From Corynebacterium freiburgense (lineage in GTDB: Bacteria > Actinomycetota > Actinomycetes > Mycobacteriales > Mycobacteriaceae), in the NCBI RefSeq assembly GCF_030408815.1, contig NZ_CP047355.1:2356001-2420000 (forward strand): DNA of 64,000 nt, written 5' to 3'. The notes beneath the pieces were generated by a model, which did not search any database, was not told the DNA's origin, and saw only the letters and a program-made list of their open reading frames with translations. Numbering within the stretch: position 1 is the stretch's first letter; every line of letters starts with the position of its first letter. The translations under genes and the position numbers were made by a program. This document shows positions 1-12,947 of the stretch, piece by piece.

Positions 1-1930
1 TGGAGAGAACTGCCTTCACTGCCTCAATGAAAGTCCTCTACAAAAGTAGAGGAAACATCTGCTGAGGAATCCGCTCATACAGGGCGTTTTTCGTGCCTCA
101 ATGAAAGTCCTCTACAAAAGTAGAGGAAACTCCGACCCGGCTATGAGGCTACCCACACCAAGCGGGGCCTCAATGAAAGTCCTCTACAAAAGTAGAGGAA
201 ACACAAATCCCCACGCGTGGTGCATCTGGGATTCGACTCGCCTCAATGAAAGTCCTCTACAAAAGTAGAGGAAACCTCAATAGAATCGAGCAATTCACCT
301 GTCGCTACCGAGCCTCAATGAAAGTCCTCTACAAAAGTAGAGGAAACGAACAAGATTCGCGGTTACGGCAAGCCAATTATCGGGCCTCAATGAAAGTCCT
401 CTACAAAAGTAGAGGAAACAGGTTGTTGGCGGCGGTTCGGGTGGCCATTTCCGCGCCTCAATGAAAGTCCTCTACAAAAGTAGAGGAAACGTGTTTTCTT
501 ATTCTTCGTCCACACCTTCTGGCATAGGCCTCAATGAAAGTCCTCTACAAAAGTAGAGGAAACTGCACCTCAAGGCTAGTGATGAACAGATTGTAGATGC
601 CTCAATGAAAGTCCTCTACAAAAGTAGAGGAAACCAAACTCATATCACGCGTGGACCCTGCAAGATCGAGCCTCAATGAAAGTCCTCTACAAAAGTAGAG
701 GAAACTCCAACTCCACACCAACCCGCACAGTTTGCTTACGGGCCTCAATGAAAGTCCTCTACAAAAGTAGAGGAAACACCGCACTTCCACAAACTGTGGC
801 TGTGCCTGATACGCCTCAATGAAAGTCCTCTACAAAAGTAGAGGAAACTTTTGTCTGAATGCTGGTTCGTAAGGGGTCGTGCTGGCCTCAATGAAAGTCC
901 TCTACAAAAGTAGAGGAAACAGGCGATTATCTGCTTCATGGTCCCTTGCTCACCCAAGCCTCAATGAAAGTCCTCTACAAAAGTAGAGGAAACGTGAACT
1001 ATGGGGCCCTACCACCGCACAAGCCGGGCCTCAATGAAAGTCCTCTACAAAAGTAGAGGAAACTCTGATCTTCCATAACTCGCCCTTCGACATTCCTCCG
1101 CTGCCTCAATGAAAGTCCTCTACAAAAGTAGAGGAAACCTCACAAACCGTAATGCGGAATCAGTTGCAGTCAGCGGGCCTCAATGAAAGTCCTCTACAAA
1201 AGTAGAGGAAACACGCACATGATTCTGAGAAAGTGTTCCAACGGTTCACGCCTCAATGAAAGTCCTCTACAAAAGTAGAGGAAACATGCGGCTATTGAGC
1301 ACCGCTGGAAATTGTCCGATGCCTCAATGAAAGTCCTCTACAAAAGTAGAGGAAACGCGCGCATCAAAAACGTTGAGGGCGCAGCATCCGGTGCCTCAAT
1401 GAAAGTCCTCTACAAAAGTAGAGGAAACTTCTATGCTGTCCGCCTCTTCCCTATTGCAACGCCAGCCTCAATGAAAGTCCTCTACAAAAGTAGAGGAAAC
1501 AGGTCCACCCACGGCTCAAAAGTGTCCGGGTCCTCGGCCTCAATGAAAGTCCTCTACAAAAGTAGAGGAAACCTCACTCGCAGGTAGCAAATCAATAACA
1601 ACAGCGGGCCTCAATGAAAGTCCTCTACAAAAGTAGAGGAAACGCAGTGGCTGGCTATGGCTACCGCGTACCAAGCCAAGCCTCAATGAAAGTCCTCTAC
1701 AAAAGTAGAGGAAACTCCCCTGTAAGACATTCGTCCCGAATGATTAGACGAGCCTCAATGAAAGTCCTCTACAAAAGTAGAGGAAACTAGGTCAACGAAT
1801 CTTTGGCCGTCTTTTTCTTTGTGCCTCAATGAAAGTCCTCTACAAAAGTAGAGGAAACGCCAGAGTGTCGGAATCAATGAATTGCTCAGGCGAAGCCTCA
1901 ATGAAAGTCCTCTACAAAAGTAGAGGAAAC
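1..1930 (-). CRISPR. Type I-G CRISPR array, 27 repeats, truncated by the window edge
   Basis: Twenty-seven copies of a 36-nt repeat begin at 21, 95, 167, 240, 312, 384, 455 and so on to 1895-1930. They enclose 26 complete spacers of 34-39 nt; bases 1-20 are probably the end of a further spacer. Every repeat I compared is identical. The repeat contains an 8-bp stem (TCCTCTAC / GTAGAGGA) with an AAAA loop. I place transcription on the minus strand: in that sense each repeat ends CTTTCATTGAGGC, and ATTGAGGC resembles the ATTGAAAC-type 5' handle of type I crRNAs. The cas operon also reads toward the array. Because the terminal repeats are not degenerate, orientation rests on handle and context only. 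The newest spacer would be the one at 1859-1894. Confidence 0.97.
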
Positions 1931-2122: not shown

Positions 2123-2425
2123 TTAAATGATAATGGCTTCATTATCCGTTACTGGTCGTGTTACTCCGATGTAGCTGAAACGAGACTCTCCAATATCAGG
2201 AAGTAATCCGAGATCACAAAGCAGAACAGAGTCTTCTGTGTTGTCGATTATCTCCCGGATATCGTCTTTCAGTCGAATAACTTTTGCAGGAATGGCATCT
2301 ACAACGAAAACACTGTATTGAATTCGGTCACCATATGATAGGAGCTTTTTCGCCAATCGCGTTCGCCGCCGGTCATCTGGGACGTCGTAAGCGATTAGTG
2401 TCCTCCTCACATCATTCCGTCTCAT
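2123..2425 (-). CDS. cas2: CRISPR-associated endoribonuclease/adaptation protein Cas2
   Basis: Cas2 forms the central dimer of the Cas1-Cas2 spacer integrase. The 100-residue length is normal for the family. The N-terminal strand carries YDVPDD, containing the conserved aspartate after the first beta strand, followed by RRRTRLAKKLLSYGDRIQYSVF, the ferredoxin-like helix and second strand typical of Cas2. Its ATG lies within the last codons of the upstream cas4-cas1 gene (4-nt overlap), so it is translationally coupled as the last gene of the operon, adjacent to the leader. Nothing appears truncated. Confidence 0.95.
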   Translation of the reverse strand: MRRNDVRRTLIAYDVPDDRRRTRLAKKLLSYGDRIQYSVFVVDAIPAKVIRLKDDIREIIDNTEDSVLLCDLGLLPDIGESRFSYIGVTRPVTDNEAIII

Positions 2426-4047
2426 CGTATTTTCACACCTCGATAAACCTTCTGAGTACCATCAATGACGCCAAGCACTAAACGTGCTTGAACTTCTATT
2501 GCTCTTCGCCACGTGACGGAGTATTCGAAGACAGGGTGTCGGAATTCCGTGTTGATACGTTTCTCAAATGCAGAAATAACAGCCTTTCGCCCGTCTTCTG
2601 ATAGACGCAGAACATTACCTATCCGAGAAAAGGAACGCTTACTTAACTGGTGTCGGTTGATTAGTGTGATGACCACAGAATCTGCTATAGGCGCACGAAA
2701 TTCTTCCATCAAATCTAGTGCCAACGCAGGCTTATTTCGATTACTGCTATGGAGAAAACCAGCATGCGGGTCTAAACCACAACTCAAGATCGCACGGATG
2801 CACTCAGAGACAAGCAACGCGTATGTGTAGTTCAGAAGAATATTGATGTGGTCATTTGCACCACGACCATGTCTCCCGATCCACTGCCAATCGAGCTCTT
2901 GTAACGATTTTTCTCGGAGCATTGAAGAAAAGGAACTGAAGTACAAACTTGCAGCTTCACCTTCGAGTCCAAAAAGCTCTTGTTGCGAGGCAATTTCTAA
3001 CACATCCTTTTGAAGTTTCCGAAGCGTTTCTACAGTTTCAGAATCATGTCCATTGCGCCGCAAAAGTGTGGCTTGATTAGCAATTTTGCACGAAATCATT
3101 TCCGACGCAATCAACAAGTTGCCACGGTCAGACATCACATGCTGCTTAAGGCGCGCTAGACCATTCGGACCGTACGCTGGCTTTGACCAACCGTAGACTC
3201 TACCGCTGCTAGAACACCATACAACTGTGGAATTCCGCCATAACAACTCTCGGATAAGGGCACTCGACAAATCAATGTTCCCATGCACAACCACGCCTTG
3301 AATACGTTCCATTGGAACATCGCCTATCACTTCGTCACCTTTGACAACTCGCAATCGCCCGCGCTGAACTGAAGCTCGAGCGCCTTGAGTAGTGATATGC
3401 GCAATCTGACTGTCAGGATTAGAAGCAAGAACTCTTCGTTCGAGCACTTTTCCATGGTGCTCGTCCGGCAAGCAAACCGAAATATGCGAGCACAAGTTAC
3501 ATAGAGGCGAATCGATAAGGGGCGGAGGAGCTACGGAAGATTCAACGATTTTTCTTGTTCGCCGAAGAAACTCAAGCGCTCTCTGACGATCATCGTCATC
3601 AATGTCAACAGATACAGTTTTATGGTGATCAGTGAAGTGAACTGCATATTCAGTCACTTTCCTGCCTTCTTCTGTCAAGCAAATCCCTTGCAAAACCAAT
3701 TGCATTCTGTTGGCTTCAGTGACTTTTGGGGTCCGTTTAATTGGCGTCGCTTTGTATTCAACAACACGCAGCTCCCCATTTGACATTTCTTCAATAGCAT
3801 CGCATCTGCCGACTAATCCCAGTGAGGGCGAGCTCACCGGAACTGAACGCTGTTGGTGCTTCCGCGACGTCGATACACGATCAACATTTTTATGAGCGGA
3901 ATGTCCATGCTGCATCTGTGCAGTATCAGTTTGCTCACCGTTGGTTTCAAGCCACGCTCGCCGTGGGCAAAACACAGTGTGCACAACCAGTGATATCGGA
4001 ATGACGTCCGTGTCCCGAACCTGGCTCTGTGCGCTCACAGCTGCCAC
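2422..4047 (-). CDS. cas4-cas1: Cas4-Cas1 fusion protein
   Basis: This single 541-residue protein joins a Cas4 nuclease (about 1-200) to Cas1 (about 205-541), an arrangement characteristic of type I-G. The Cas4 part has the four cysteines of an Fe-S cluster (C27 in FCPRR, then C183, C186 and C192) and RecB-family residues D83, E97 and K99. The Cas1 part keeps its metal-binding motifs: the helix ending in VSE, the histidine in GLDPHAGFLH and the aspartate in ALDLMEEFRAP. Cas4 selects and trims PAM-proximal ends of prespacers, and Cas1 with Cas2 integrates them. The start overlaps the end of csb3 by 13 nt. The protein appears intact, so adaptation should be possible. Confidence 0.96.
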   Translation of the reverse strand: MAAVSAQSQVRDTDVIPISLVVHTVFCPRRAWLETNGEQTDTAQMQHGHSAHKNVDRVSTSRKHQQRSVPVSSPSLGLVGRCDAIEEMSNGELRVVEYKATPIKRTPKVTEANRMQLVLQGICLTEEGRKVTEYAVHFTDHHKTVSVDIDDDDRQRALEFLRRTRKIVESSVAPPPLIDSPLCNLCSHISVCLPDEHHGKVLERRVLASNPDSQIAHITTQGARASVQRGRLRVVKGDEVIGDVPMERIQGVVVHGNIDLSSALIRELLWRNSTVVWCSSSGRVYGWSKPAYGPNGLARLKQHVMSDRGNLLIASEMISCKIANQATLLRRNGHDSETVETLRKLQKDVLEIASQQELFGLEGEAASLYFSSFSSMLREKSLQELDWQWIGRHGRGANDHINILLNYTYALLVSECIRAILSCGLDPHAGFLHSSNRNKPALALDLMEEFRAPIADSVVITLINRHQLSKRSFSRIGNVLRLSEDGRKAVISAFEKRINTEFRHPVFEYSVTWRRAIEVQARLVLGVIDGTQKVYRGVKIR

Positions 4048-5096
4048 AATTCACCTCTTTGAACTTGGCGTTCAGGTGCTGTGCTACTCCCTGTTTTAAG
4101 AATCGGAAACACGGTTATTACCGTCACTCCACGTAATCGAAGCCACTGCATTGCTGCTTTTACTTCAAGAGAGTTTTGTGCAGTATTTGAAGTCCCTTCC
4201 AGGATCGAGCCAATATTGTCTGTAACTAGCGCTAACTCACCCGACATGAGGATGGATCGCAATCGTGCCAAACTCATTGGCTCAGTTGGTACCGGAAGAA
4301 TCATCCGACTTGGGTGGAGTCTTGTTCGGTGCCAGGCACCAGGAGTTACAGAAATTCCGCCCGAATTGTGTACCAACGGAAACGCAGCAATGCCTAGCAA
4401 ACCCGCAAAAGCTAACGCCACATCCGTCGGTGCTGGCGACGTCAATCCTGTGGAGGTACGTGAATCAACTTTCTGCTTTCCGATCGTATCGTCAACACTT
4501 CGCCCTGTAATCCCAGCAAAAATCCTGCTTACATCCCATTGGCTGAGCTCTTTAACCATAGGACTCAACCGATCTTTGACGAACTCTTCACCACGATTGC
4601 GCGTTTTCATTTCCCAACGAGACGCACCTTCATCTGGTCGATTGCTTTTGCCATCACAACGCCAATATGCGGCTTCTCCTAGGGCAGCAATCCATTGCAA
4701 CGAAGCATAATCCGCGGACTCGAAGCACACATCGATCGCACGGTGCCGAAGCTTCTGATGCTCCCGCCAATCGCCGCTATCTGCGATTGGATCCATTGCC
4801 CGTATTCGAGGCGACATTGGCGATAATTCAACAGCTTTCTTTTTCGCTCCATATGTATGACGCACTTGCGGCCAAGCATCGGGAGCTGCAAGGTGTGTTG
4901 CATACTCAAGAAGCAGTTCAGCGATCGCTTCTTCAGTTACATCCGGAACGGATAGTTCTCCCAGAGGTTTTTCTTCGTTTGTCCACCGCATTCTGGCCTT
5001 ACCGGGCCATTTCTCTTCACAAAGCAGCGCGAGCCCGTACATTGCAAAGTGAGACAACGCAGACTGGATACCGTCACCGATCATAAGCGTAGCCAT
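4035..5096 (-). CDS. csb3: Csb3, type I-G effector-module protein (353 aa)
   Basis: The position between cas3 and cas4-cas1 and the size match Csb3, which replaces Csx17 (the Cas8-like large subunit) in one branch of type I-G, as in Bifidobacterium. I see no classical catalytic motif. The protein opens with a small-residue-rich segment (MIGDGIQSALSHFAMYGLALL) and has a central arginine-rich stretch. A role as a divergent large subunit in PAM recognition is inference from the locus, not from a motif. The ATG overlaps the cas3 stop by one base (TAATG), so translation is coupled. Confidence 0.8.
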   Translation of the reverse strand: MATLMIGDGIQSALSHFAMYGLALLCEEKWPGKARMRWTNEEKPLGELSVPDVTEEAIAELLLEYATHLAAPDAWPQVRHTYGAKKKAVELSPMSPRIRAMDPIADSGDWREHQKLRHRAIDVCFESADYASLQWIAALGEAAYWRCDGKSNRPDEGASRWEMKTRNRGEEFVKDRLSPMVKELSQWDVSRIFAGITGRSVDDTIGKQKVDSRTSTGLTSPAPTDVALAFAGLLGIAAFPLVHNSGGISVTPGAWHRTRLHPSRMILPVPTEPMSLARLRSILMSGELALVTDNIGSILEGTSNTAQNSLEVKAAMQWLRLRGVTVITVFPILKTGSSTAPERQVQRGELWQL

Positions 5097-7831
5097 TACC
5101 GCCCCTCCTTTGAAACCTGAGCGTCAGCTGCACGCTCAATGTACTCAAGGTAGGCCATCTGGTACGGCCCGAATTCTTTATCGGTATGCCAGATCATCGA
5201 ATCCCACTCGCCTTCCACAAACAGCCGCCTTGCTTCTTCCCGTAATGCAGGCTCGGTTTCTGGTAGTAGAAAATTCTCGTACGCATGAGGGAAACCGGAA
5301 CGTCCACACCCATGGCTGCAGCCGATGATTCGCAATGCCACATCCGAACAATCCATATCCTCAATGTGCTGTCGACGATCTGTAGACACCAGTAGCGCCG
5401 ACATTTGTTCATGTCGCCAACCCTGTGGAAGACCGCTTCGATGCCGCGCAATTGCCGCCTGTTGCTGGGTTCTGTCTACACTTTTAGCTAATTCTGGATC
5501 CTTTAACTGGCGTCCAAGCATGGTTTGGAATCGCTTATCCGCCTTGCCATCATCATGATGCGCAGCGGCAAAAACCACGTCCTGAGCAAACACCTCTGCT
5601 AAACCAATTTTTTGACACAAAGATTCAGCCCGCTGCTTCACATTAGATTGATGACTTTCCAGCGAAACTATTTCTTTCGAAGAAGTCCACACTTGCTGGT
5701 TTTCTTCGTCGGTTTCAATCGAGCGTTTCCGCACCGCATACCACTCGACTACCTGCCCTATACCAGGGTATTCAATAACCGCTGAGGGGATAAGAATCTC
5801 ACTATCATTGTTCCCGGCTTCTCGCCAGAGTTCAGTCGCTTCATCAGGGCTTAATCCAGCGAACTTCCGGAACCATGAGCTAGCATTCTGTCCTTCGCTT
5901 TTCCCCCAGAAAAACACCTCACATTCAGGGTCTTCAACTGGATTTGGAGACTGCTTATCTTGCGGTTTAAGGTCGGCCACCCATTCGGTAGTAAACTTCA
6001 GCCCCGCATCGATAATAATTACGTCCCCAGGCTGGAGCTCCATCCCGGGCAGACAAAGAGCAACTTTTTCTTCCCGGTATAGGAATGCGCGTCTACGCAA
6101 TTCCGGCTGTTTCAACTCGGCTTTGAAACGTTCATGTTCTGGCATCACCAGGTCATCAAGAACCGACCTGACTACTTTTAGCGATGCTGGAAATACTTCC
6201 GAATCTTTCGGCGGTATGGCCGCCAATAGATCAAGGCACGCAGCGTCACTATCAGGCAAAGGCGACCTCACAATGATTCCAGCGCCAATAGTGTCTGTCT
6301 CAAGTGAATCCCGCAACCACAAACCAAGATCTTGTTCAGCAAATAGCTCATCGCTTGTACGTGCGTAGTTCATTAATTCAATAAACTCTAGACGCTGGAA
6401 CAACAGCCTATTTGTCGATGCCGCTGGTGGTGGGTACTTCTGCACAGTTCCAGGATTCACATGGCCAACATCCAACATTTTCTGCACCCAAACCAGTGCC
6501 GTTTTTAGATCATCACCTCGATAAGGTGGATGCGCATCCTTAATCAACTTTTCGCCGGTCGGTCCGACAACAGAGATTTCAGTTTCATCGCGTTTGCCTA
6601 GACGATTTACCCGACCAAAGCGCTGAGCCAATGCCGAACCCGGCGCCAGTTCGGTAACCATCCCGGCAAAATCCATATCAACGCCAACTTCTATGGTTTG
6701 TGTCGCCACAACCACATCTACATTTGGATCGCCAGCCGGTGTAAACAGACCCACTCGGCGTCGTTTCAGTGCTTCCACATCTGCTGGGCGCATTCTTCCG
6801 ACAAGGATTTCCACTGCCAACCCTGCTTTACGCAACATTGCTGTAATTCTTGTTGCTGTATCCACATGGTTTACAATGCACCCGATTGTGCCGGAACATC
6901 CAATGCTCTCCCGCAGACGCTGTATTTCCTCCACAATTGCACTGACCACAGGGGAGTTCGCGGGCTTTCCATTCCACTTATCGACGCCCATATAGTTCAG
7001 CTTTTTATGCGCAGTCATTCGCCGTTTCAACTCAGCATCACGCTCAGAATTCACTTGGCTTGAGTCGACGCCGATGGTGCTAAAGGTTTCAGAATGCTCT
7101 GGCGTAGCCGTAGTCTCAACAACCTGTAATTTGGGAATGCCTAGTTCAGCACCATACTCCTGAAGTTCCCGTACTCTACGTGCGGTATGGAGAAGCTGAT
7201 TATTCAGGTGCGCTTCATCCAGCACCAGCACGGAATCCATAGCAACCATGGCAGTTTCGCGAGGACGTGACCGCTTCCCACTTCCATATCCACGGAACAA
7301 TAACCGCGATCCCCACATATCTGGAGTTGCTGCTATCACTGCAGCGCTACTCGGATCATCAACAGGAATTGTTCTACTGCTCAGAGCACCACGCAAATGC
7401 CCCACAACAAAGGGGTCAACAACGTCATCTTCTACAGAACGCAATGATTGCAGTGCCAAAGCAACATCTAGCAACAATGTTTCATCTTCATTATTGCCAC
7501 CATGACATAGCACTCGGCGCATTGTTTCCAAAATGCTTTGCGCACGCATGTACTGGTTATCCACAAGTGCACGACGATTCACAACTACAGAAAGCCGACG
7601 CGGCACGCGTGCCCCGCCTCCGACAGCAGAAAGCGCATTAGCAAACAGGTGAATATCTACTACCGACGACTTCCCGGCTCCCGTTGGCGCAGCGATCCGA
7701 TCAGGCCATTTCCCCGTTTCTGCCAACATACGCAGCAATTCACACTGCCACGAAAACGGTGCATGGCCACCATTGAGTGCTGCAAAAAACTGGTCAAAAT
7801 GATTGATGGAAAGTGACTTAGTTTGCTGCAT
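5096..7831 (-). CDS. cas3: CRISPR-associated helicase-nuclease Cas3 (C-terminal HD)
   Basis: Cas3 is the DNA-degrading motor of type I interference. The start chosen is the ATG at 7831, preceded by AGGAG at good spacing and overlapping csb2 by 14 nt; the frame stays open to 8206 but that extension lies entirely inside csb2. The 911-residue product has Walker A (PTGAGKS, 49-55), a DEAH box in LVLDEAHLNNQLL, and superfamily 2 motif VI in the QRFGRVNRLGKR stretch. The HD nuclease motif (AAHHDDGKADKRFQ) lies in the C-terminal part, so the order is helicase then HD, the reverse of I-E Cas3. All recognisable catalytic motifs are present. Confidence 0.94.
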   Translation of the reverse strand: MQQTKSLSINHFDQFFAALNGGHAPFSWQCELLRMLAETGKWPDRIAAPTGAGKSSVVDIHLFANALSAVGGGARVPRRLSVVVNRRALVDNQYMRAQSILETMRRVLCHGGNNEDETLLLDVALALQSLRSVEDDVVDPFVVGHLRGALSSRTIPVDDPSSAAVIAATPDMWGSRLLFRGYGSGKRSRPRETAMVAMDSVLVLDEAHLNNQLLHTARRVRELQEYGAELGIPKLQVVETTATPEHSETFSTIGVDSSQVNSERDAELKRRMTAHKKLNYMGVDKWNGKPANSPVVSAIVEEIQRLRESIGCSGTIGCIVNHVDTATRITAMLRKAGLAVEILVGRMRPADVEALKRRRVGLFTPAGDPNVDVVVATQTIEVGVDMDFAGMVTELAPGSALAQRFGRVNRLGKRDETEISVVGPTGEKLIKDAHPPYRGDDLKTALVWVQKMLDVGHVNPGTVQKYPPPAASTNRLLFQRLEFIELMNYARTSDELFAEQDLGLWLRDSLETDTIGAGIIVRSPLPDSDAACLDLLAAIPPKDSEVFPASLKVVRSVLDDLVMPEHERFKAELKQPELRRRAFLYREEKVALCLPGMELQPGDVIIIDAGLKFTTEWVADLKPQDKQSPNPVEDPECEVFFWGKSEGQNASSWFRKFAGLSPDEATELWREAGNNDSEILIPSAVIEYPGIGQVVEWYAVRKRSIETDEENQQVWTSSKEIVSLESHQSNVKQRAESLCQKIGLAEVFAQDVVFAAAHHDDGKADKRFQTMLGRQLKDPELAKSVDRTQQQAAIARHRSGLPQGWRHEQMSALLVSTDRRQHIEDMDCSDVALRIIGCSHGCGRSGFPHAYENFLLPETEPALREEARRLFVEGEWDSMIWHTDKEFGPYQMAYLEYIERAADAQVSKEGR

Positions 7832-9389
7832 CTTCAGACTCCTCATGAAGCGCAATAATTGCTCGTGCAAAATCTTCAGGAATATCACGCGGTACCAACA
7901 GCCCTCCGCCCAGGTGACGTGATTGTCCAACCGCGACGATGGTCGAAGGGCCCATGAGGTCACCAAGATAAAACAATCCAGTCCACGCCTGCACCGTGAC
8001 ACTCTTTTGGGATCGGTGCACGTACTTTGCAGCAGGGACTGCCAACGTGTGGGCGTCATGAACAAACGCTCCTCGGCACGTAACCTGATCCCGCAACGAA
8101 CGATATAACTCTTGCCCTTTACCCAAGGCTTCAAATTCGTCGCGCCATACAAATCCGAGTGACAGCAAACCAGAATCCGCGAGTTTCCAACGCTTGGACG
8201 AATCACTCGACTTCACCGGTCGAGTTTCCGGAATCACTGCACTCGCGGGAGACCAGAAGCGAACCTTGCCAGGCTTTGGCTCCGGCCAAAACTCATCCGC
8301 CGCCACTGATACTCCGCCAAAATACAAACGCCGACGGCCAATATCGCGACCCCAAATTTCCCGAACAGCCGCCAATCCGGTGACCAACTGTTGCAACTCT
8401 TCATCACTCGCGCCACGAGGCAACATCAACGCTATCGCGTGGCTTTTCAGACCAAACCGTGCAACATGATCAGCTTCGAGATACTGAATTGCCAAGCGAT
8501 TTGCTGGCTGGAATTCACTAGCCTGGCCGTACTTTCCGGTGACCATACTAGACGCTCCGAAGCCAAGTGCGGCAACAATCGCACGGTGCATAGCAACACA
8601 CACCGCCACATGCTCCGTACTCGACAGCGGCTTCCCAGAAAGTTCGAATAATAAAACCTGATCCCAAGGGGTCTCTACCAGGCGTTCATCCGGATCTTTA
8701 TAGCGAACTTCACGCAAACACTCGTGCGTTCCCCGGGGTGGGCGCGGTAATTCACTATCACTCTTTTTGTCTGCACTGACTGACGGAAATTTTTTTGGAT
8801 GTGCAAGATTGTATTCCGAAATCAAATGCTGCGTTCTTCCTGGCGCAGGTACCCGAACCGACGTGCCACCCCGTGTAAACGGCGTTGCTGCAGAGTCGAG
8901 AAACAACGTTGGGGAAACCTCACCGGGTTCCACAATCGCCACGCTATGCGACTCGCCAAGGCAGGAAATGTCCTCGGCCAATGCCTCCACCGTACGCGCA
9001 ACGTCATCCGGAACATCTTCCCAACGCCAACCGATCGGACCAGCAAGCGCAACACCATCCGATACCGGACGATTTTCAGTCAAATGCTTCTTATTAATGC
9101 TGCTCACCTTACGGTACGCGAACCTACCACTACGATTAGATAACCACCGTGCAACTGGAACCTGAATACCTGTTGGAGGATGTTCTTCCAACCAAGTCAA
9201 CGCCTCGAGAGCCGCAGCACTAGGCTCCAAGCGGTTATTCTTCTCTACCGCATGACTACCCTGCGCTGCCGAATTCAAAAGCGCTCCGTGAAGACGCGCC
9301 GGATCCGGCAACCAGTCAGGTCGCTTATCACGACGATGGCCGTTGTACACCCCCAATGGAAACCTCGCGACAAGACTTAACGTGCGCAC
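7818..9389 (-). CDS. csb2: Csb2 (GSU0054 family), Cas5-Cas6 fusion of type I-G
   Basis: Csb2 of type I-G combines a Cas5-like subunit that caps the 5' handle with a C-terminal Cas6-like crRNA endonuclease. The 523-residue length is typical. The N terminus (LSLVARFPLGVYNGHRR) and the segment LPDPARLHGALLNSA are family features, and no separate cas6 gene is present, so this protein should process the repeat hairpin. The start is GTG at 9389 with GGGAG seven bases upstream. It lies 11 bp after csb1 and overlaps cas3. In an operon regulated by a crRNA-like RNA, it would also be the enzyme that matures that RNA. Confidence 0.93.
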   Translation of the reverse strand: MRTLSLVARFPLGVYNGHRRDKRPDWLPDPARLHGALLNSAAQGSHAVEKNNRLEPSAAALEALTWLEEHPPTGIQVPVARWLSNRSGRFAYRKVSSINKKHLTENRPVSDGVALAGPIGWRWEDVPDDVARTVEALAEDISCLGESHSVAIVEPGEVSPTLFLDSAATPFTRGGTSVRVPAPGRTQHLISEYNLAHPKKFPSVSADKKSDSELPRPPRGTHECLREVRYKDPDERLVETPWDQVLLFELSGKPLSSTEHVAVCVAMHRAIVAALGFGASSMVTGKYGQASEFQPANRLAIQYLEADHVARFGLKSHAIALMLPRGASDEELQQLVTGLAAVREIWGRDIGRRRLYFGGVSVAADEFWPEPKPGKVRFWSPASAVIPETRPVKSSDSSKRWKLADSGLLSLGFVWRDEFEALGKGQELYRSLRDQVTCRGAFVHDAHTLAVPAAKYVHRSQKSVTVQAWTGLFYLGDLMGPSTIVAVGQSRHLGGGLLVPRDIPEDFARAIIALHEESEDAAN

Positions 9390-9400
9390 AACTAGTCTCC

Positions 9401-10606
9401 CTACTGACCGTTCTCGGTGGAATTATCCGCACCACTTAGAATCGCAGGATTACCAACAACTTCGAGCACCTGGCCGTTCCAATCCGCCACACCCAATTCA
9501 CGCGCATACTCAATTGCGTGCTCAAGCAAAGCGTCGGCGGCTTCCACCGTGATTGGTTCGAGCGAACGCTTTTCCCCAAAACGCTGATCAAGCATCACCT
9601 TCGGCGCCGACGTTTCCACAAGGTCGCAATTCGCTCGGAGATATAATTCCCGTTCAGCGCGAGCCATTAACGACAATGCCAACGCGGCAAGCAGGGCACG
9701 CCCCGCGATATCACCTTGCAAGTTTTGCCCGAAACGCAACTGTCGGAGCGTTGCGAAGCTCAATACCCAAGATCGAATGATCTTACTGCAGGAAACTCCA
9801 CCCAATGCCTCTAACTGCGGCGGAATACCTCCGAGCCCAAGACCTGATGCGGAAATCTTTGTGTCTTTTTTCGCCTTCTTGATTTCTTCAGAAATTTTTT
9901 CTACAAAACCTGGACTCAATTCCGACTTTTGATCATCCACAATTTTTTGCAGAACACTAGGTTCTAGGCGCACACTCATTGCGATGCTATCTACCCGGGC
10001 ACCACCGCGCTTTGATTGCTGATCTTCTGGAGATGCCTCTTGATCTGCGAGAACGCCGATGATCTCACCAACTAACGCACTCCGGAGGCGGACCTGACCG
10101 TGCGGACGAGATGAATCCCAGGCACCAAGCAATGCGGCGGCAGGAGCTGTATTTAGCAATGGTTGGTAGTTCGCAGCAGTGCAGTTACGAACTGCACGGT
10201 ATTTTTCATGAGCCGTCGCAGGCTCGCCATCAATCTTACCGGCACGAATATGACCGTCAGCGAAACGATGTGGCAATTCCATATCAGAAAGAACAGGCCC
10301 ACCTTTGTACTCTACTTCGATCCGCGGCACCTTTGTTGCAAGCGGATGACCCGCTCGAACGTCCTGCATAAATGCGTCTTCGCAACGGTTGAGCTGCGAT
10401 TGCTTTGAGTCAAGAAGTGCCACTTTTTTCGGTTCCCCGTCAACAAAACGAGTTTCAAATGCGAACACCGAATTACTCCGGTCAACAAACTTAGCGGGCG
10501 CCACGGATGCGTGTGGACCTGCAGCAGCCTCCAACTCAGTCACCGATGTGAGCACTGAAGCTCCACCCGGGGTGCAAGCATCAATCAGATCTTGGAATGT
10601 AAGCAT
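9401..10606 (-). CDS. csb1: Csb1 (GSU0053 family), Cas7 backbone subunit
   Basis: Csb1 is the Cas7 protein that polymerises along crRNA to build the type I-G Cascade. The 401-residue product starts LTFQDLIDACTPGGASVL and contains the family segment LNRCEDAF, with a lysine-rich, low-complexity stretch near residues 240-265. It is the first gene of the operon. The ATG at 10606 is preceded by GAAAGGTGAAG, and a good sigma-A-type promoter lies about 100 bp upstream (10704-10733). As the most upstream gene, it sets the level of the whole effector complex. Confidence 0.93.
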   Translation of the reverse strand: MLTFQDLIDACTPGGASVLTSVTELEAAAGPHASVAPAKFVDRSNSVFAFETRFVDGEPKKVALLDSKQSQLNRCEDAFMQDVRAGHPLATKVPRIEVEYKGGPVLSDMELPHRFADGHIRAGKIDGEPATAHEKYRAVRNCTAANYQPLLNTAPAAALLGAWDSSRPHGQVRLRSALVGEIIGVLADQEASPEDQQSKRGGARVDSIAMSVRLEPSVLQKIVDDQKSELSPGFVEKISEEIKKAKKDTKISASGLGLGGIPPQLEALGGVSCSKIIRSWVLSFATLRQLRFGQNLQGDIAGRALLAALALSLMARAERELYLRANCDLVETSAPKVMLDQRFGEKRSLEPITVEAADALLEHAIEYARELGVADWNGQVLEVVGNPAILSGADNSTENGQ

Positions 10607-10703
10607 TCTTCACCTTTCGATCATTCGAACATGAGTTCTTTTTTGTGAGCGGTTGTTGGGTTGGGCTTCTAGACTGGAAGTACCACCTGCAACCACAAAA
10701 CGC

Positions 10704-10733
10704 ATTATATTCACATCACTTACAAGGTTTCAA
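10704..10733 (-). promoter_or_regulatory. Promoter of the cas operon
   Basis: On the minus strand TTGAAA (10733-10728) and a perfect TATAAT (10709-10704) are separated by 18 bases. Transcription would begin near 10697 and give an untranslated leader of about 90 nt before csb1. No other promoter of this quality lies between the mini-CRISPR and csb1. It sits 18 bp downstream of the pseudo-spacer target at 10751-10773. Confidence 0.75.
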
Positions 10734-10750
10734 CTAAACCAAATTTTTCG

Positions 10751-10773
10751 GCCCATTTATCTATACTTACCCA
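10751..10773 (-). promoter_or_regulatory. Partial target site of the mini-CRISPR spacer, upstream of the cas promoter
   Basis: Read on the minus strand from 10773, the sequence TGGGTAAGTATAGATAAATG continues to GGC at 10751. It matches the first 23 bases of the pseudo-spacer (from 10869) at 17 positions. Mismatches fall at positions 6, 10, 12, 14, 15 and 18; positions 6, 12 and 18 are those flipped out of the crRNA-DNA hybrid in type I Cascades. A full Cascade footprint from 10773 would reach the -35 box at 10733. The three bases 5' of the site are TAC; the PAM of this system is unknown. Confidence 0.6.
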
Positions 10774-10819
10774 GTACCTTGTTTTAAAATATGCAGCTCA
10801 CCGCCTTGTGTGCCAGAAC

Positions 10820-10894
10820 GAGTGGCGTGGCAAGCGTCGAGCCGAAGCCCAGTTTACGAGACTCACCCAACCTCAATGAAAGGCCACGCCACTC
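10820..10894 (-). ncRNA. CreR/CreA-like crRNA-resembling RNA (degenerate mini-CRISPR)
   Basis: In the minus sense, 10894-10883 is GAGTGGCGTGGC and is followed by CTTTCATTGAGG (10882-10871). The latter is 12 bases identical to the 3' part of the array repeat, including the predicted crRNA handle. A 34-38-nt pseudo-spacer follows (from 10869), then GCCACGCCACTC (10831-10820), the perfect complement of the first segment. This equals a half repeat, a spacer and a half repeat, in which the two stem arms are retained but differ in sequence from the array stem. Lengths match real spacers (34-39 nt). A poor -10 candidate, TATTCT at 10907-10902, would start transcription almost exactly at the first arm. 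It is co-oriented with, and upstream of, csb1. CreR and CreA RNAs in other systems have this plan; the assignment here is by structure only. Confidence 0.7.
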
Positions 10895-11438
10895 AACACC
10901 GAGAATATCCGAAAACCAACCTCTCCTAGCACTTCTGAAACATTTAAGATGCCAAAGCCCTACACGACATCAAATCACATACAGACATGAACCATCCAAG
11001 AAAACCAACCCAGTTTTAATTTCGAAAAATACAAATTGTCAATTCGGCAATTCTTTTTACCTATTTCTACTCTTTTGATTTACAGAATTCGCCAACGTTA
11101 TTTTGCCAAGGTTTCAATAACTAACGACATCCGATTTTGAACTTGACTCTATACGGCACAAATGCCAAAAATACTCTGCACTTCCCCAGGAGTGCCAGTA
11201 GATTTCGATTTTATTTTCACCGTAAAGTTTATAAACTTCCGACTTATACTGACCCGACAGGAGATTTACCTAGGACACTCGACACAAAGTAGTGTGATTC
11301 AACTCATACATTAGATGCATTGGCCTCACCATTGCCCCGCCTGATAAGGTCTCTTTACATTTACTTTCGGAAAACCTTTAATGCTTAATTCCGCTTATCT
11401 TTCTAGATTAGGTCTCCAGCGACACCTACGCTGGTTCT
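10895..11438. other. AT-rich intergenic region between the mini-CRISPR and the peptide transporter
   Basis: I find no convincing gene; the 95-codon frame at 10791-11078 runs through the mini-CRISPR and has no ribosome site. The region should hold the mini-CRISPR promoter (minus strand) and the transporter promoter (plus strand). The clearest element is the 14-bp perfect palindrome AAGTTTATAAACTT at 11225-11238, followed by TTATACT (11243-11249), which could be an operator and -10 element. Confidence 0.5.
11225..11238. promoter_or_regulatory. Perfect 14-bp palindrome, candidate operator
   Basis: AAGTTTATAAACTT is a perfect inverted repeat about 200 bp upstream of the peptide-transporter ATG. 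A -10-like TTATACT follows five bases downstream, so a bound dimeric regulator would overlap a promoter. No regulator gene is adjacent. Function is inferred from symmetry and position only. Confidence 0.3.
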
Positions 11439-12947
11439 ATGACCACTGATTATGCTATCGATTCGAATCAACCAAAAGATCCTCCTTCTCCCGGCAAGCA
11501 AAATGAGAAAACGTTTTTCGGCCACCCTTGGGGCTTAGCCAATCTGTTCGGCGTTGAACTGTGGGAGCGTTTTAGCTTCTATGGCATGCAGGGAATCTTG
11601 GTGTTTTACCTCTATTATTCTGTGCAGAAAGGGGGCATGGGCCTTGACGAGGGCGTCGCAACGGCAATCGTAGGCGCTTATGGTGGCATGGTTTATCTTG
11701 CCTGCATTGGTGGAGGTTGGCTGGCTGACCGGGTACTTGGTTCGGAACGGACGCTGTTTTACTCCGCGATTCTAATTATGATTGGCCATATTTCTTTGGC
11801 CCTTTTGCCTGGGTTTGCAGGCCTAGTGATCGGCCTTATTTCAATCGCATTGGGTTCAGGCGGTCTGAAAACATCGGCGTCCACCGTTCTTGGTGATCTT
11901 TATGCTAAAGATGACCCTCGCCGTGATGGTGGATTTTCTATTTTCTATATGGGCATAAATATCGGTGCGCTATTTGGACCGCTGCTTACAGGCTGGATGT
12001 GGGGCCAGTATGGTTTCCATTTTGGTTTCGGGTTAGCCGCGATTGGTATGGCAATTGGTTTGACTCAATACGCGTTAATGCGAAAGCAAACCATTGGTGA
12101 TACTGGGCACACAGTTTCTAACCCACTGCCAGCTAAGCTATATCTGCCGTACACCATTATCGCAGTACTCGTGGCATTGATTGTATTTGTGGTTGTGAAA
12201 TCTGGTTTGATTGCGCCCGGTAATCTCTCAAACGCAGTTTCAATTATTGCATTTATTGCGGCAGTAATTATGTTCTGGCAGATGTTGGCTTCAAAAGAAA
12301 CTACCCAGGCGGAAAAACGTCGGCTTATCGGTTTTATCCCAATGTTTTTGGCGTCCGTTGCGTTCTTTTCTATTTTCCAACAGCAATTTACGGTATTGGC
12401 CGTCTATTCTGACCAGCGGCTAGACCGTACTTTCGGCTCATTTGAGATTACGCCTACATGGGTAAATGCTATTAACCCGATCTTTATTATTATCTTCGCG
12501 GGCGCATTTGCCACATTGTGGCTAAAACTCGGGAATCGGCAGCCTTCAACACCAATTAAATACGCCTTGGCACTGATTGTTGTTGGTATTGCGCCGTTCT
12601 TCTTTATTCCTTTTGCCGGTGGTGGACCAAACTCCACACCATTTTTGGTTATTGTGTGGATTTTATTTATCTTCACCATTGCCGAACTGCTAATTTCACC
12701 GGTGGGATTGTCCCTGGCCACAAAAGTTGCGCCTCATGCATTCCCTACTCGGATGATGAGTTTGCATATGCTATCGCTCGCAATTGGTACGGCACTATCT
12801 GGCTCATTTGCTGGTTTCTACCACCCAGACGATGGAGCTGCTGAACAAACATACTTTGTGGTGTTAGGTGGCAGTGCAATCGCACTTGGTGTTGTGTTGT
12901 GGCTTTTAAATAAGCCGATCCTTCGTGCTTTCGGCGACGTAAAATAA
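11439..12947 (+). CDS. Proton-dependent oligopeptide transporter (POT/PTR2 family)
   Basis: This is a cytoplasmic-membrane symporter for di- and tripeptides. The 502-residue length is usual for bacterial POT proteins. The signature ELWERFSFYGMQGILVFYL (about 38-56) carries the ExxERFxYYG motif of helix 1 that binds protons and peptide, and a further family motif appears as FSIFYMGINIGALFGPLL. Twelve to fourteen hydrophobic segments can be counted. The first ATG of the frame is used, giving a hydrophilic N-terminal tail of about 35 residues. It is a single gene, separated from the convergent lipoprotein gene by a strong hairpin at 12961-13000. DtpT of Gram-positive bacteria is the closest named relative I can suggest. 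Confidence 0.93.
   Translation: MTTDYAIDSNQPKDPPSPGKQNEKTFFGHPWGLANLFGVELWERFSFYGMQGILVFYLYYSVQKGGMGLDEGVATAIVGAYGGMVYLACIGGGWLADRVLGSERTLFYSAILIMIGHISLALLPGFAGLVIGLISIALGSGGLKTSASTVLGDLYAKDDPRRDGGFSIFYMGINIGALFGPLLTGWMWGQYGFHFGFGLAAIGMAIGLTQYALMRKQTIGDTGHTVSNPLPAKLYLPYTIIAVLVALIVFVVVKSGLIAPGNLSNAVSIIAFIAAVIMFWQMLASKETTQAEKRRLIGFIPMFLASVAFFSIFQQQFTVLAVYSDQRLDRTFGSFEITPTWVNAINPIFIIIFAGAFATLWLKLGNRQPSTPIKYALALIVVGIAPFFFIPFAGGGPNSTPFLVIVWILFIFTIAELLISPVGLSLATKVAPHAFPTRMMSLHMLSLAIGTALSGSFAGFYHPDDGAAEQTYFVVLGGSAIALGVVLWLLNKPILRAFGDVK

Follow-up and report, generated by a model that had tools for sequence, protein, structure and literature searches.

CreRs are crRNA-like RNAs that are encoded in the cas locus and partially match the cas promoter; in the text available of two reviews, they are named for types I-B, I-E, and V-A (a 2026 review, PMC13131331) and attributed to type I and V-A (PMC12737573). 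In CreA of haloarchaeal type I-B systems, as described in the accessible part of PMC8501985, nucleotides 1–5 and 7–11 of the guide pair with a PAM-flanked partial match, nucleotides 6 and 12 are unpaired and freely changeable, and the flanking repeats are degenerate. The haloarchaeal CreTA repeats have no conserved hairpin according to the available text of PMC9458426, which also covers type II scaRNA; there, as with the tracrRNA-derived single guide, the effector is reused and partial pairing represses the system's own or other genes. Racr RNA anti-CRISPRs of phages are repeat-derived RNAs outside the array, described in the available portion of PMC10651486 as solitary repeats of viral origin. 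In the literature that we searched, the reach of which excluded two primary works on CreR, no CreR was found for type I-G.

Here, we analyse a 64,000-nt stretch of the Corynebacterium freiburgense genome (the window), in which a 75-nt unit on the minus strand (10894–10820), upstream of a type I-G cas operon, is in our judgement highly probably a CreR of split-repeat form, that is, a cas-autorepressing guide RNA through which Cascade would limit its own synthesis. It has both properties of the CreRs of types I-B, I-E, and V-A given above but differs from them in its I-G effector, its TAC-type PAM, and its mutually pairing half-repeats in place of whole degenerate repeats. It also resembles the haloarchaeal CreA in pairing pattern and PAM and, in so far as half-repeats compare with degenerate ones, in its flanking repeats, although its target is the cas promoter and not a toxin, and its arms form a covarying stem that the CreTA repeats lack. 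Unlike the type II guides, which are Cas9-based, it involves no Cas9; the six genes of the operon are all I-G cas genes and none encodes that effector. In contrast to the Racrs, the element is chromosomal and has both a guide and a target.

Table 1. Features of the type I-G locus and of the element upstream of it (window coordinates).
Feature	Position	Strand	Remarks
CRISPR array	21..1930	minus	27 repeats; cut by window start or ends near it
cas2	2123..2425	minus	TIGR01573
cas4-cas1 fusion	2422..4047	minus	NF049935 1.2e-140 (under own cut-off); TIGR00287 above cut-off
I-G Cas3-adjacent protein	4035..5096	minus	NF049934 at 1.3e-8, under its curated cut-off; presumably csb3, a name given from position
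cas3g	5096..8206	minus	TIGR02621, above cut-off
csb2 (cas5-cas6 fusion)	7818..9389	minus	TIGR02165, above cut-off
csb1 (cas7g)	9401..10606	minus	TIGR02570, above cut-off
Predicted -10 of csb1 operon promoter (TATAAT)	10704..10709	minus	same promoter prediction as the TTGAAA -35
Predicted -35 of csb1 operon promoter (TTGAAA)	10728..10733	minus	11/12 consensus together with the -10; spacer 18
Target, partial guide match	10751..10773	minus	167 nt ahead of csb1 start
PAM-like TAC beside target	10774..10776	minus	
3' arm (half-repeat) GCCACGCCACTC	10820..10831	minus	pairs with 5' arm; covaries
Distal part of spacer-like stretch	10832..10846	minus	no match to target; weak hairpin only
Guide nt 1–23, TGGGTGAGTCTCGTAAACTGGGC	10847..10869	minus	17/23 to cas promoter site
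Handle region CTTTCATTGAGG	10871..10882	minus	array repeat positions 24–35 of 36
5' arm (half-repeat) GAGTGGCGTGGC	10883..10894	minus	pairs 12/12 with 10820–10831; covaries in relatives
Predicted -10 box of the element's own promoter (TATTCT)	10902..10907	minus	TANNNT 25 nt ahead of handle

The unit reads arm, handle region, 39 nt, and complementary arm, and the guide is thus flanked by two half-repeats that pair with each other and not by whole repeats. Array and operon are read in the same direction, with the array at the far end; in that direction, the 36-nt array repeat is GTTTCCTCTACTTTTGTAGAGGACTTTCATTGAGGC, and the handle region is identical to it over 12 of 12 nt, outside the array and within the cas locus. 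The first-pass annotation had recognized this identity and the layout of half-repeat, spacer, and half-repeat, and both hold, with every sequence element where it had been placed. Its perfectly complementary arms likewise stand, but 39 nt, and not the 38 it gave for the spacer, separate the 12-mer from the second arm; the spacer is 38 nt if the thirteenth base after the arm is counted as the final base of the handle. We took base 10870 as the last of an 8-nt handle and counted the guide from the next base.

An ordinary CRISPR array has at least two whole direct repeats; outside the array, a single 12-nt repeat segment was found here. The RNA of the element folds with z = -3.9 against 200 shuffles, and a search of 10400–11500 with the curated Rfam covariance models gave one sub-threshold 5.8S match (E = 0.64, at 10971–11129).

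When guide nucleotides 1–23 are aligned with 10773–10751, 17 of 23 pair, including all five of the seed, and the mismatches include positions 6, 12, and 18. This is the best match between the element and csb1, and none of 400 shuffles equalled it; allowing up to three mismatches, a genome-wide search found the guide pattern at the element and at the target only. The target sits immediately ahead of the -35 of csb1, and a leader of 145 nt precedes the gene. Guide and cas message are of the same sense, and the predicted promoter of that message begins only downstream of the target, so that pairing between the two is excluded. The idea of a CreA- or CreR-type RNA had been put forward from the element alone; the target, which had been missed, lends it support, and a TAC-flanked partial match beside the -35 of csb1 favours CreR (cas autorepression) over CreA (antitoxin) in the window.

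TTN is the PAM of other I-G systems, and a TTG-flanked site on the plus strand at 10656 (6-nt seed, 16/24) was for that reason our first favourite; it was dropped because the TAC-flanked site on the minus strand recurred in other loci. The PAM could not be read from array spacers, as those of the window and of two relatives (L018 and L021) had no match in phages, nor those of the window in plasmids. The B. lactis I-G Cascade (Csb1, Csb2, and Csb3) has TAT as its PAM, which is close to TAC, according to the available part of PMC12915315.

Conservation was assessed in 242 genomes of the genus, among which 16 csb2-family matches were found, 11 of them full-length with an adjacent csb1 (the window's own included). 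The five left out (L027–L031) are weak matches with neither csb1 nor csb2 by tblastn; four have repeats that we take to be I-E-like, and no array was found on the contig of the fifth. The element is present in all 11 full I-G loci, including those of Corynebacterium gallinarum, C. amycolatum, C. flavescens, and C. pelargi. In each, the handle (two mismatches at most) lies 232–342 nt ahead of csb1, on the opposite strand in L025 and L026, and the 3' arm follows 49–52 nt from the start of the handle. The loss of the handle-like segment or the paired arms from related I-G loci had been named as evidence against such an RNA; within the genus, both are found in 11 of 11.

In a MAFFT alignment of the 11 elements, all 12 stem pairs are changed on both sides and 93.9% of the 132 cells are paired. 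None of 500 shuffles did as well, and sliding the partner by 1–3 columns reduced pairing to 26–57%. The earlier expectation that the half-repeats would follow the local array repeat did not hold, for by inspection the arms covary with each other and not with the stem of the array repeat. A TANNNT box begins 22–27 nt before the handle in all 11 loci (11 in two bins against a background of 0.31 per 4-nt bin); at such a fixed distance, it would suit a -10 box with a transcript start near the 5' arm.

The match between guide and promoter is also retained. A search without any seed requirement found the best match at the locus' own site upstream of csb1 in 10 of 11 loci, with 15–20 of 23 positions and all of the first five bases paired. 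These ungapped targets lie 146–182 nt ahead of csb1 and are flanked by TAC in nine cases and TAA in one (L017), while in L018, TAC and the seed are present at the corresponding position and a one-base gap is needed (18/23 gapped, 11 ungapped). Shuffled regions were never equal or better in 400 trials in seven loci, but were so 2, 11, 12, and 131 times in L025, L026, L020, and L018, respectively. Each guide matches its own region best in 8 of 11 rows; L026 gives a tie, and L018 and L020 do better on the region of another species. That relatives keep the match although both sequences change suggests that the CRISPR complex probably turns down its own production.

One should ask whether a handle by itself would bring such features along. 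Apart from the array and the element, the same genome has a single exact copy of the 12-mer, at 1648382 of contig C1, with a best stem of 7/12 and a best guide match of 10/23. Together with 18 copies from 15 other genomes of the genus, this site makes up 19 control copies of CTTTCATTNARG, the best stems of which reach 6–10 of 12, their TAN-flanked guide matches 9–12 of 23, and their seeds at most 4 of 5. Scored in the same way, the 11 elements have stems of 9–12, guide matches of 15–20 (L018: 11 ungapped), and seeds of 5/5. One control, L228 (stem 8, guide 10), is matched by the covariance model as the element of G017 and is therefore not a pure chance site.

Cascade guides generally have every sixth base flipped out, and the mismatches should be read with this in mind. 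In nine non-redundant Corynebacterium pairs, positions 6, 12, and 18 are mismatched in 18 of 27 cases, against 20 of 90 at positions 7–11 and 13–17 (p = 3e-5); outside the genus, 14 non-redundant actinobacterial pairs give 31 of 42 against 20 of 140 at the neighbouring positions (p about 7e-13). These counts leave out L018 (not ungapped), L026 (a near copy of L025), and L095 (a near copy of L096), whereas other tallies keep the spurious match of L018 or keep L095. Because pairs were picked by total score, and not by which later bases fail, the rhythm is an unforced test; the screen of other genera additionally demanded TAN and the first four guide bases. Locus L117 (14/23), with 11 consecutive matches and no mismatch at position 6, was kept in the screen and the rhythm counts, and its match may be due to chance. 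Mismatches at 6, 12, and 18 are as expected if the guide is bound by Cascade.

Pairing between guide and target ends abruptly at about position 23, though the spacer-like stretch extends to about 38 nt. Positions 24–29 are mismatched in 9 of 10 loci, slightly above chance in a tally that includes the spurious match of L018, and this possibly reflects selection against full pairing and cutting.

The wider search covered 108 further loci of all genera (some genomes appear twice), in 73 of which csb1 immediately precedes csb2. Of the 73, 20 combine a handle-like motif with a TAN-flanked match of 13/23 or better, and 146 cross-locus draws reached 12 at most; no such combination of handle, guide, and target was found in the other 53, where the handle list and the 700-nt limit may miss some. 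Five of the 20 are Corynebacterium loci already counted. The remaining 15 belong to Actinomyces bovis, Propionibacteriaceae (two near copies), Phytohabitans, Dactylosporangium, Flaviflexus (two), Gordonia, Haematomicrobium, Bifidobacterium (four), an actinomycete MAG, and one more genome. With csb1 starts extrapolated from tblastn, the site lies at most 190 nt ahead of csb1 in 9 of 14 non-redundant loci and 398–626 nt ahead in five (one from Propionibacteriaceae and the four from Bifidobacterium).

A wide screen without a PAM had, among the matches listed, TAC or TAT at the best csb1-upstream site in 12 loci, seven of them outside Corynebacterium. The matches listed (92 of 544 candidates) also include many of at least 16 with other PAMs elsewhere, mostly with two-mismatch handles; given the large search space, we read these as background.

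In the four Bifidobacterium loci (L127, L131, L132, and L137), the guide matches a TAC- or TAT-flanked site 398–626 nt before csb1, and the site is followed by an ORF of 17–28 aa with a ribosome-binding motif and a high share of hydrophobic residues; two of the four loci have their site on the other strand. It is possible that these loci are CreTA-like modules with peptide toxins.

These Bifidobacterium loci, with sites that precede a tiny hydrophobic ORF and not csb1, are the reason to consider that the element in the window is itself a CreA antitoxin, which by the same guide logic would repress the toxin gene of a CreTA-like addiction module and not the cas genes. In the window, however, the target borders on the csb1 promoter, csb1 is the first gene predicted after it on that strand, and no linked toxin gene among those predicted has the target at its promoter; the nine further Corynebacterium loci whose target is ungapped likewise have it 146–182 nt before csb1. 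We regard an antitoxin as very improbable here, and the element very likely works like CreR. Observed directly are the sequence of the element, the covariation of its stem, the species-specific match of guide and target, and the mismatch rhythm.

As a CreR, the element would be transcribed from a promoter of its own, with a start close to the 5' arm. By pairing, the arms would then restore the stem by which Csb2 normally recognizes the repeat, with the CTTTC-ATTGAGG junction attached, and the half-repeats before and after the guide would close this stem around it, giving a split repeat. The Csb2 of one other I-G system, reportedly that of Thioalkalivibrio, is a useful guide to the next step. 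It cuts 4 nt past the repeat hairpin, yields an 8-nt handle, and stays on the hairpin, as given in the available part of PMC9638904; in the window's element, an 8-nt handle requires a cut 5 nt past the stem. By analogy with that enzyme, a cut after CTTTC would produce the usual 8-nt handle and is expected to leave ATTGAGGT at the 5' end of the 75-nt RNA. With one Csb2 site there would be one cut, and Cascade would presumably keep the arm duplex at the 3' end.

Loaded with this guide, Cascade could bind the TAC-flanked site through the 5-nt seed and pairing up to about nucleotide 23, and from 10776, a complex spanning about 36 nt would reach the edge of the -35 at 10733. Partial pairing should allow binding without cutting by Cas3, and the complex, once in place, would impede RNA polymerase at the cas promoter and lower the amount of Cascade. 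Abundant array crRNAs, or a blocked Cascade, would be expected to ease repression, as with the CreRs of other subtypes. As the target is upstream of the -35 and not over the start site, the geometry of repression is an assumption.

Proteins bound just upstream of the -35 can also activate, and the position of the site would suit a CreR-guided Cascade that activates the cas promoter or acts as a roadblock to something else (e.g., read-through from the element itself). We know of no activating part of Cascade, which counts against activation. The CreR and CreA of other subtypes repress in the accessible text of PMC12737573 and PMC8501985, and we give this alternative little credence. Least probable of all is a decayed leftover of an array, or a structured RNA that acts as a decoy for Cascade or Csb2 and has no guide function, for although the repeat-derived handle, the strong stem, and the retention of the element with no local target in three csb2-less genomes would fit, it predicts neither the 12 two-sided stem changes nor the species-specific matches nor the 6-nt rhythm.

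If the element is a CreR, cas autoregulation by crRNA-like RNAs extends to type I-G. Type I-G is employed for editing in bifidobacteria (available part of PMC12915315), and crRNAs overexpressed from an editing plasmid should in that case increase cas expression as well. The split repeat points to a minimal Csb2 substrate and a compact single-unit guide for I-G tools, and the covariance model offers a means of searching for such RNAs in genomes and prophages.

Over the 242 congeners, the covariance model of the element gave 17 matches at E ≤0.01. The 11 I-G genomes score 54–74 bits, values that are high by construction for the training copies, and G038, G042, and G232 score 27–30 bits, the match in G042 lying inside its array. 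That array (L216, contig C3, 1241445 onward) consists of 22 or more repeats with CTTTCATTGAGG at their end; 19.5 kb of sequence gave no match to any of the six I-G cas proteins, and by its repeats it is an orphan I-G-type array. The csb2-less genomes G218, G109, and G017 have strong elements of 45–66 bits (L236, 9848–9928 plus; L237, 9651–9731 minus; and L238, 9896–9975 minus, respectively). Their guides are alike, with no convincing local target (best 12/23), and across these genomes, the one shared guide pattern found no convincing target either, with a three-mismatch site in G218.

Another element of the same kind (L239, 55.7 bits) lies at 9633–9713 on the minus strand of contig C37 of a C. 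flavescens genome (G052), near phage endolysin and holin genes, and an identical one is present on an IMG/VR contig (L245, 248–328 minus). The first 8 nt of its guide are common to the guide of the host's own CreR; at the host cas target, positions 1–5, 7, and 8 pair beside TAC, and the total of 12/23 is that of a chance site and equals the null maximum. It is possibly a phage-borne mimic of CreR. A broader and doubtful proposal is that the I-G split-repeat guide has diversified in actinobacteria, into the cas autorepressor of the window, guides that serve as antitoxins at genes for tiny hydrophobic peptides in bifidobacteria, and a prophage mimic that copies the host CreR seed, by which the host Cascade would shut the cas promoter.

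Two Corynebacterium loci have a second copy of the element. In L021, an identical copy with its target is found 872 nt further upstream (handle at -1104, about 1.1 kb before csb1), and by eye it is followed by transposase-like fragments and by an ORF of 49 aa that has a ribosome-binding motif. In L017, the second copy is diverged (handle at -1289, about 1.3 kb before csb1) and has its own nearby site of 20/23, with mismatches at 6, 9, and 10; by eye, the next ORF resembles csb1 at its start and may thus be a partial duplication of the start of the operon.

That the distal guide half forms a conserved hairpin was also considered and is not claimed: the 11 elements differ from 223 array spacers at p = 0.045, and 32% of the array spacers reach the median of the elements.
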